Positions 6,100-8,344 of a stretch of DNA of 30,844 nucleotides are shown here, in pieces. The stretch lies in IMG/VR virus record IMGVR_UViG_3300020470_000129, positions 1-30,844 of that record. One strand, 5' to 3'. The notes beneath the pieces are model-generated. The model did not search any database. It saw nothing but the letters and a program-made list of their open reading frames with translations, and had not been told where the DNA came from. The translations under genes and the position numbers were made by a program. The stretch's first letter is position 1. Each line of letters opens with the position of its first letter. The DNA comes from a virus.

Positions 6100-6261
6100 A
6101 TGCCAAAAAATATTCACGCGACTGAACCACAAGTAGAAGTAATCGATGTAGATTACTATGAAAATGCTGAACGTGTTAACGGACAGTTAGCTATGATTGG
6201 GTTCATCGCAGCAATCGGTTCCTATATATTTACTGGACAGATTATACCTGGTATATTCTAG
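6100..6261 (+). CDS. hli: high-light-inducible protein (Hli, chlorophyll-binding)
   Basis: The 53-residue product carries the single-helix light-harvesting-like signature ENAERVNGQLAMIGFIAA (E24, R25, N27, G28, A31, M32, G34, F35), the ExxNGxxAMxGF chlorophyll-binding motif of cyanobacterial high-light-inducible proteins. The hydrophobic segment at residues 29-53 is one transmembrane helix for the thylakoid membrane. These proteins bind chlorophyll and carotenoid and protect photosystems under stress. Cyanophages carry them to keep host photosynthesis running during infection. Here it sits between scaffold and capsid, as in related podoviruses, but no psbA gene is present beside it in this window. 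The short N-terminal extension (MPKNIHATEPQVEVIDVDYY) is typical. It has no obvious ribosome binding site. Confidence 0.92.
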   Translation: MPKNIHATEPQVEVIDVDYYENAERVNGQLAMIGFIAAIGSYIFTGQIIPGIF

Positions 6262-6310: not shown

Positions 6311-6376
6311 CACGTCCGTTCATCCCTTCGGGGGACGCATGAAACCACATCATGGAACGGGGGTGTGGTACTGGAG
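6311..6376 (+). ncRNA. candidate glutamine-II (downstream-peptide) riboswitch
   Basis: The leader contains the core CGTTCATCCC-TTCG-GGGGACGCATGA followed by GGAACGG, which I recognise from memory as the downstream-peptide (glutamine-II) aptamer of picocyanobacteria. Pairings seen directly are CGTCC 6313-6317 with GGACG 6333-6337, CCGTTC 6316-6321 with GAACGG 6355-6360 (all six bases), CCC-TTCG-GGG at 6324-6333, and ACCACA 6344-6349 with TGTGGT 6364-6369. The GTTC of the first loop can pair with GAAC in the second loop, giving a pseudoknot. A Shine-Dalgarno GGAG (6373-6376) and a tiny DUF4278 ORF follow directly, the arrangement that named the motif. Such RNAs bind L-glutamine and block translation when nitrogen is ample. 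Identification without a covariance search is probable, not certain. Confidence 0.72.
6373..6376 (+). promoter_or_regulatory. Shine-Dalgarno GGAG for the DUF4278 micro-ORF
   Basis: GGAG lies eight bases before the ATG at 6385, just 3' of the structured leader. This spacing decides the start of the 16-residue peptide and places its ribosome binding site where riboswitch folding could control access. Confidence 0.6.
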
Positions 6377-6384
6377 TATTAGCA

Positions 6385-6435
6385 ATGACTGTTAAACTAA
6401 GGTATCGTGGTATTGAGTACACTAAAAAAATTTAA
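6385..6435 (+). CDS. DUF4278-type micro-peptide, 16 aa
   Basis: The frame encodes MTVKLRYRGIEYTKKI. The core LRYRGIEY matches the Y-R-G-x-x-Y signature of DUF4278 peptides of cyanobacteria and their phages, found as the 'downstream peptide' behind glutamine-II riboswitches. A Shine-Dalgarno GGAG stands eight bases before the ATG, and the RNA leader lies just upstream. The biochemical role of these peptides is not known to me; a link to nitrogen status is inferred from the riboswitch. The ORF stops seven bases before the next gene, so it might also influence translation of that gene. Confidence 0.65.
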   Translation: MTVKLRYRGIEYTKKI

Positions 6436-6442
6436 TTAACTC

Positions 6443-6802
6443 ATGAAAACAATTGCACTAGCCCTAGCGGCATCCACTCTCGCTTCGACTCCTGCAATGG
6501 CAGGCGTTTATTTAAACGCTGAATCCAACGCATCTTATACAGGCGGTGACTATACTTCCCGTACTACCGATCTACACGTAGGCTATGAAGGGGACGTAGG
6601 ACAACTTGGATACTACATTCAAGGTGGACCTGCTCTAACCGGAGCTGATGGTGAAGATGGTACCACAGAATTCTCAGGTAAACTCGGAGCTTCTATCCCT
6701 GCATCTGAGAAACTCGATGTGTATGGTGAAGTATCATTCATCACTGATGACGATGCTGACAACGCATACGGCACCAAAATAGGTGCAAAATATAATTTCT
6801 GA
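6443..6802 (+). CDS. exported outer-membrane beta-barrel-like protein
   Basis: The 119-residue product starts with a clear Sec signal peptide (MKTIALALAASTLASTPAMA, predicted cut after AMA at residue 20). The mature 99 residues alternate polar and hydrophobic positions in several strands (for example TTDLHVGYEG, LGYYIQGGPAL, FSGKLGASIP, KLDVYGEVSF) separated by Gly/Asp-rich turns, and the protein ends in Phe (KIGAKYNF), the usual terminal residue of outer-membrane barrels. This points to a small porin- or OmpA/OmpX-like barrel in the host outer membrane. Similar short proteins occur in cyanophages, but their role is not established. Envelope modification, superinfection exclusion or release are possibilities. 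Its stop overlaps the next start (TGATG). Confidence 0.72.
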   Translation: MKTIALALAASTLASTPAMAGVYLNAESNASYTGGDYTSRTTDLHVGYEGDVGQLGYYIQGGPALTGADGEDGTTEFSGKLGASIPASEKLDVYGEVSFITDDDADNAYGTKIGAKYNF

Positions 6803-6954: not shown

Positions 6955-7085
6955 AGTTCAACGAACTATGGTTAGCAGTCTTCGGGCTGCTAGCCTTTTT
7001 CATATTAATAGAAGTCTTACATGTCAATTATCATAGACAAGGTAAGGCATGGTTAGAGGCACCTCAGTGTCGGACCTCTAGCTAA
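6951..7085 (+). CDS. small single-pass membrane protein, 44 aa
   Basis: The product has one hydrophobic helix at residues about 5-22 (LWLAVFGLLAFFILIEVL) followed by a basic, polar tail (HVNYHRQGKAWLEAPQ). It overlaps the preceding gene by four bases (ATGA) and is the last gene before the capsid leader. Its size and topology would suit a small envelope protein, perhaps holin- or regulator-like, but there is no motif and the function is unknown. Confidence 0.5.
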   Translation: MKFNELWLAVFGLLAFFILIEVLHVNYHRQGKAWLEAPQCRTSS

Positions 7086-7195
7086 TTGGCTTTTGCCCTG
7101 TACGCAGGATACCATTAGCCGTCTAGACGGTGGGATAGACCACAAATTTGAACGTTCGAAGATTAGTTATACACACAATTATTTATCTTTAGATC
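7086..7195 (+). promoter_or_regulatory. capsid gene leader with three inverted repeats
   Basis: This 110-base gap before the capsid gene holds CCTG-TACG-CAGG (7097-7108), a perfect 12-base palindrome CCGTCTAGACGG (7119-7130) that can be extended across a bulge by CCA 7112-7114 and TGG 7131-7133, and GAACGTTC (7150-7157). An AT-rich stretch follows up to the ATG and there is no Shine-Dalgarno sequence. Such a gap before the most strongly expressed late gene is a likely site for a phage promoter, RNA processing or an mRNA-stabilising structure. Which one cannot be decided from sequence alone. Confidence 0.45.
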
Positions 7196-8344
7196 ATGGC
7201 ACAACAGAGTACCGCGCATCAGGCGTCGGTAACTATTCCAGGCGCCGATAATGGAGACGCCGCGGATAGAAGAGCCCTTTACCTGAAATTGTTTTCAGGA
7301 GAAATGTTTAAGGGTTTCGAATATAATACCATAGCTAGAGATCTTGTCACAAAGAGAACCCTAAAGAACGGTAAGTCATTACAGTTCATTTACACGGGTC
7401 GTACCAAGGCTGAATACCATACACCAGGTAATTCAATACTAGGTAACTCTGACGGAGCACCACCAGTAGCTCAGAAGACTATCACTGTTGATGATCTTCT
7501 GATCTCAAGTGCCTTCGTTTATGAATTAGATGAGACTCTTGCGCATTATGAGTTACGTGGAGAGATTTCCAAGAAGATTGGATATGCACTAGCTCAGAAA
7601 TATGATAGATTAATCTTCCGTGCTATTGCACGTGGAGCTAGAGCCGCTTCGCCTATTACTAAGGCTAACTATATAGAACCAGGCGGCACCCAAGTCCGAG
7701 TAGGTTCTAACAACGTGGCATCTGATGCTTATGTATCAAGTTCCTTGGTGAATGCCTTCTATGATGCAGCTGCTGCATTAGATGAGAAGGGGATTAGTTC
7801 TGACGGACGCGTGGGTGTATTGAACCCAAGACAATACTATGAACTTATTCAAGCAGTAGGTTCTAATGGTCTTGTTAACAGGGACGTACAAGGTACTGCA
7901 TTGCAGAATGGTAATGGAATCATTGAGATTGCCGGAATTAAAATATTCAAATCAATGAATATTCCATTCATGAGCAAGTATGGTACTAAGTATGGTTCTG
8001 AGTCTGCTACAAACCCTGGAATAACATCTCCTGGCAACGTTGGTTCCTTTGTAGAAGAGGATATTGAAGATGCTGCTAACGATGTAACAGGTATTCATAA
8101 CGAGTACGGTGAAGAAACAGAATTCGCTAACTCCTGTGGACTTATCTTCCAGAAGGAAGGCGCAGGTGTTGTCGAAGCAATCGGTCCTCAAGTACAGATC
8201 ACTTCAGGTGATGTCTCCGTGATTTATCAGGGTGATGTTATCCTAGGTCGTCTTGCTATGGGTGCTGACTTCCTAAACCCAGCTGCTTGTGTTGAGCTTG
8301 TTGCAGGTGCTGCTGCAGGTTCTTCAGGAAACGCTGCTTTCTAA
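7196..8344 (+). CDS. major capsid protein, T7 gp10-like
   Basis: The 382-residue product has the features of podovirus coat proteins of the HK97 fold: an N-terminal arm (AQQSTAHQASVTIPGADNGDAADRRALYLKLFSGEMF), a FEYNTIARDLVTKRTLKNGKSLQFIYTGR region, the DDLLISSAFVYELDE segment, and a GVLNPRQYYELIQ helix near residue 207. It forms the icosahedral shell. Its length is close to T7 gp10A (344 aa). It stands after the accessory cassette and is followed directly by an intrinsic terminator, as in T7. I see no sign of a programmed frameshift extension at the 3' end. Confidence 0.95.
   Translation: MAQQSTAHQASVTIPGADNGDAADRRALYLKLFSGEMFKGFEYNTIARDLVTKRTLKNGKSLQFIYTGRTKAEYHTPGNSILGNSDGAPPVAQKTITVDDLLISSAFVYELDETLAHYELRGEISKKIGYALAQKYDRLIFRAIARGARAASPITKANYIEPGGTQVRVGSNNVASDAYVSSSLVNAFYDAAAALDEKGISSDGRVGVLNPRQYYELIQAVGSNGLVNRDVQGTALQNGNGIIEIAGIKIFKSMNIPFMSKYGTKYGSESATNPGITSPGNVGSFVEEDIEDAANDVTGIHNEYGEETEFANSCGLIFQKEGAGVVEAIGPQVQITSGDVSVIYQGDVILGRLAMGADFLNPAACVELVAGAAAGSSGNAAF

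Follow-up and report, generated by a model that had tools for sequence, protein, structure and literature searches.

A short RNA element lies between the genes for a high-light inducible protein and an exported beta barrel in the late operon of a T7-like cyanophage, which raises the question of whether the phage reads a metabolite of its host and, if so, on behalf of which gene. The window analysed here is the 30,844-nt stretch at positions 1 to 30,844 of the IMG/VR virus record IMGVR_UViG_3300020470_000129; the riboswitch, the micro-ORF and the neighbouring genes are all on its plus strand. Our answer is that this glutamine-II riboswitch is likely to be a translational ON switch for a 16-residue DUF4278-type peptide.

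Identity and fold of the riboswitch

The whole window was scanned against Rfam 15 at the curated gathering thresholds. This yielded a single match, to the Glutamine-II family (RF01704) at positions 6314-6369, covering the full model (1-60 of 60). Its score of 57.8 bits, where the cut-off is 33, puts the match far above chance (E = 1.1e-11). In the crystal structure 6QN3, glutamine is contacted by C1, G18, C19, C39 and G40, and the fold also includes the C19-G41 and A33-G42 pairs (PMC6698751). With C1 placed at 6317, the core of the window RNA is in register with the crystal through P2 except for the length of the P1 loop. The ligand-contact nucleotides are all present (C6317, G6337, C6338, C6358 and G6359), as are the counterparts of the two pairs (6338-6360 and 6352-6361). 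Since the folding energy of the aptamer is ordinary (z about -0.6), it was not used as evidence; the covariance model and the comparison with relatives identify the RNA as a glutamine-II riboswitch, as the initial annotation had it. Judging from the contact nucleotides, the window copy is predicted to bind L-glutamine.

The aptamer occupies positions 6317..6369. Its P1 hairpin (TCCC/GGGA, 6323-6326 with 6332-6335), placed by covariation and Rfam, has a UUCG-type loop, while the 5' strand of the pseudoknot, CGUUC (6317..6321), pairs with 6355-6359 in the register given by 6QN3. The C6338-G6360 pair corresponds to C19-G41, and P2 (6344-6351 with 6362-6369), placed by covariation, is closed by the A6352-G6361 pair. 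The complementary segments named initially are all present and two of them belong to this fold: CCGTTC/GAACGG (6316-6321 with 6355-6360) is the pseudoknot and ACCACA/TGTGGT (6344-6349 with 6364-6369) the outer part of P2. The remaining one, CGTCC/GGACG (6313-6317 with 6333-6337), is no helix of the solved fold and would compete with the TCCC/GGGA stem of P1.

Relatives were collected with a core-pattern search, which gave at least 120 viral contigs. Sorting the matches listed by P2 pairing and the presence of A33, and adding the window itself and eight loci from named phages, resulted in a type II set of 89 phage loci, which represent 77 distinct RNAs. Rfam confirmed RF01704 in P-SSP7, P-SSP3, P-SSP6, P-SSP10, P-SCSP-R27W, NATL2A-133, NATL1A-7, P-GSP1, S-RIP1, S-RIP2, S-TIP37 and S-CBP1.

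An alignment of 74 sequences gave a covariation score of 0.405, compared to 0.114 in shuffled alignments, none of 500 of which reached the observed score, and at most 0.065 when the structure was slid along the alignment. Compensatory changes in related phages were thus found in both stems, with changes on both sides at 8 of 8 pairs in P2 and 3 of 4 in P1. The percentage of paired P2 positions is inflated because P2 was used for selecting the set, which leaves the range of P2 pair types unaffected. The pseudoknot is invariant in all rows, but its letters were fixed in the search pattern.

Directly 5' of the aptamer is a CGTC flank (6313..6316) whose conservation is confined to phages: 69 of the 77 distinct phage RNAs among the matches listed are preceded by CGTC or CGTA, as against 1 of the 41 RNAs taken from genome contigs. 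In S-TIP37-like phages, a TTCGTAC segment could pair with GTACGAA ahead of the start codon. A CAUG/CAUG anti-aptamer hairpin is also conserved in phages, yet its exceptions are uncompensated and this candidate was dropped.

A conserved micro-ORF follows the aptamer

A Shine-Dalgarno sequence, GGAG (6373-6376), is located 3 nt after P2 and is followed by the proposed 16-residue ORF, MTVKLRYRGIEYTKKI (6385..6435). This micro-ORF carries the YRGxxY motif of DUF4278 peptides, its core in the window being LRYRGIEYTK, and adjoins the glutamine riboswitch. An ATG-initiated ORF of 13-42 residues with YRGxxY was present just 3' of the aptamer in all 89 phage loci among the matches listed, whereas the same test at random positions of the same records succeeded in 55 of 20,000 cases. 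For an 11-codon core in 64 distinct sequences, pN/pS was 0.48 in frame, compared to 1.28 and 1.39 when the alternative frames were read, and the motif residues Y, R, G and final Y were invariant while their codons varied. By its recurrence and this pattern of substitutions the micro-ORF is a real, protein-coding gene; in P-SSP7, where the peptide has 17 residues, it is unannotated.

The assignment of the peptide to the DUF4278 type is supported by longer relatives. The best of these phage peptides matched PF14105 with 26.4 bits (cut-off 25.3), followed by 21.4, 19.0 and lower scores, and two relatives of 21-22 aa gave no PF14105 match; the 16-residue peptide itself is below the minimum length of 20 residues for hmmscan. 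In hosts, type II RNAs are followed by YRG-repeat peptides or by members of a second family (MNNLLQIREKIKRANRLYEAQLL...), and some phage peptides resemble a fusion of the YRG-repeat and MNNLLQIREKIKRANRLYEAQLL families.

Genomic context and the controlled gene

In the window, the upstream neighbour encodes a high-light inducible protein, Hli (6100..6261; phrog_178, E = 1.2e-20), and the downstream neighbour is Phage_OMP, an exported beta barrel of 119 aa (6443..6802; PF24653, E = 1.3e-45). Further downstream is the gene for the major capsid protein (7196..8344), which is similar to proteins annotated as capsid proteins in P-SSP7, NATL1A-7 and S-RIP1. The location had at first seemed unusual, but the slot is standard in T7-like cyanophages. 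At least one gene for scaffold, Hli, PsbA, Phage_OMP or capsid was found no more than 3 kb away and in the same orientation at 86 of the 89 loci among the matches listed (the exceptions being L047, L048 and L104), and in the named T7-like cyanophages the cassette is situated in the interval from psbA or hli to the major capsid gene. P-SSP7, which is one of the 86, has exactly one copy.

The initial annotation had allowed for control of the barrel gene as well. Accordingly, the micro-ORF might be a leader whose glutamine-set translation couples to the next gene, here Phage_OMP, as the real target. Where Phage_OMP comes next, it starts between 4 nt before and 26 nt after the stop of the micro-ORF and does so without a Shine-Dalgarno sequence, but most genes in the window lack such a sequence anyway. 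Moreover, the gene 3' of the micro-ORF differs among phages, being Phage_OMP in a minority and otherwise a short ORF or the capsid gene, so that the constant partner and presumable target is the micro-ORF and not the barrel. Together with the selection on the peptide sequence itself, this makes a leader function unlikely. We also rejected the barrel or the capsid gene as the main target more generally, both because the next gene varies and because a terminator-like hairpin lies ahead of the capsid gene in the window.

Direction of the switch

For the micro-ORF as the controlled gene, we estimated how the aptamer fold affects access to its start region. In the window, the predicted cost of opening this region was 9.8 kcal/mol and dropped to 7.7 kcal/mol once the fold was imposed. 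Across 85 phage sequences the mean gain was 0.9 kcal/mol, with 50 in favour of an ON switch and 18 against, and the host riboswitch copies showed no opening gain from the imposed fold. These models lend weak support to the ON direction. A universal anti-Shine-Dalgarno strand was considered and rejected: by eye, candidates were seen in P-SSP7 (CUCC/GGAG) and NATL2A-133 (ACCU/AGGU), and none in the window or in NATL1A-7.

An OFF switch, or another route such as mRNA stability, with the peptide being made at low glutamine, would accommodate both the weak folding support and the 18 of 85 phage copies with the opposite tendency, and the 5' flank can indeed pair with P1 (CGUCC/GGACG). Against this, the one Prochlorococcus type 2 switch that has been tested activates expression on glutamine, according to a review (PMC6316151), and the end of P2 lies 3 nt ahead of the Shine-Dalgarno sequence, as is typical of translational control. 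We therefore regard such a reversed or indirect mode of action as improbable, slightly more so than a leader.

As an ON switch, the element would work as follows. When host glutamine is high, L-glutamine would be bound in the pseudoknot and the P1-pseudoknot-P2 fold would form, leaving the Shine-Dalgarno sequence just 3' of P2 open for synthesis of the micro-peptide. At low glutamine, the strands would pair otherwise and initiation would fall. Host DUF4278 proteins are believed to act on nitrogen metabolism, and the peptide probably does likewise; from the riboswitch family it is fair to infer that the phage may sense host nitrogen status.

Relationship to host and phage glutamine riboswitches

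The phage RNA resembles the glutamine-II riboswitches of Prochlorococcus and Synechococcus (type 2, Downstream-peptide; RF01704, 6QN3) in P1, the pseudoknot with C19-G41, P2, A33-G42 and every ligand contact, as well as in the short DUF4278-type ORF that comes next. Type II switches ahead of small DUF4278 ORFs are known from hosts (PMC6316151). The host copies lie behind a promoter-like sequence of their own, which in many cases includes an NtcA-like GTA-N8-TAC box, and are followed by peptides of 30-60 aa. In phages, the aptamer begins 4-10 nt behind the stop codon of a gene in an operon, has the CGTC/CGTA flank and is often followed by a single-repeat peptide of 13-22 aa.

The cassette is absent from Syn5 and S-CBP2, for which no psbA or hli is annotated, indicating that it travels with the host-derived island. 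That it is an unselected relic of host DNA acquired with psbA and hli, as this absence might suggest, is highly improbable: it is contradicted by strong covariation and by purifying selection, both seen in many phages, and the host promoter was lost while the cassette was kept.

A functional parallel is the gifB/IF17 switch of Synechocystis, which likewise turns on a small DUF4278 protein in response to glutamine, although that aptamer is of type 1 with a three-way junction. DUF4278 forms the N-terminal part of IF17 and is dispensable for inhibition of glutamine synthetase (PMC6316151); the phage micro-peptide lacks the inhibiting part that IF17 has.

Among phages, glutamine riboswitches are on record for Melnitz (glnA type), Mosig and AG-345-P14 as well as for T4-like cyanophages. 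The Melnitz switch, by the ssrA gene of a myophage, is of type 1 and thus differs from the type II switch of the window. The T4-like cyanophage loci that we sampled mostly have the short glnA-like form, largely just below the Rfam cut-offs, and lie outside the capsid slot. Several glnA-like cores in these loci (L003, L013, L025, L046, L075, L080, L120, L252 and L253) are in tandem; many T4-like cores precede two-repeat DUF4278 peptides, and they mostly score just below both Rfam cut-offs. Our literature search found no paper linking P-SSP7 to a glutamine-II riboswitch. One phage is reportedly mentioned in the description of the Downstream-peptide motif in Rfam or Wikipedia.

A second structured RNA upstream of the capsid gene

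Two further elements were observed in the stretch that separates the Phage_OMP group from the capsid gene. One is the terminator-like hairpin, GGTTAGCAG-TCTTCGGG-CTGCTAGCC with TTTTT, at 6970-6995. The other is a second structured RNA at 7041-7145, 5' of the capsid gene, which starts with a hairpin that is T-arm-like in some phages and a real tRNA-Gly in NATL1A-7. It continues with TTGGC..GCC around a hairpin that has a TACG-type tetraloop and a stem occurring in many variants, and then with GTCTAGAC and GTGG-GATAGA-CCAC. This RNA was present in 76 of the 89 phage loci with glutamine-II switches among the matches listed and in 4 more named phages, and in none of 40 T4-like loci; it matched no Rfam family.

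Implications

The kind of aptamer and the occurrence of glutamine riboswitches in cyanophages were already known. What is added here is the fixed cassette in T7-like cyanophages, the single-repeat peptide, the CGTC flank peculiar to phages and a second RNA absent from the Rfam catalogue. To our knowledge, the use of metabolite riboswitches by phages has rarely been documented. The same riboswitch and micro-ORF near the capsid gene in most of the psbA/hli-carrying relatives examined suggests that the virus reads the nitrogen state of its host late in infection. More tentatively, T7-like cyanophages with psbA or hli might encode a glutamine-gated micro-peptide, reduced to the YRGxxY core that DUF4278 proteins have in hosts, that retunes host nitrogen metabolism during capsid production. 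Numerous marine cyanophages have this switch and its micro-ORF in a single slot, and with the model pair P-SSP7/MED4 among the cases, both the possible reading of host glutamine by a phage during infection and the role of the shortest DUF4278 peptides in picocyanobacteria can be tested in the laboratory.
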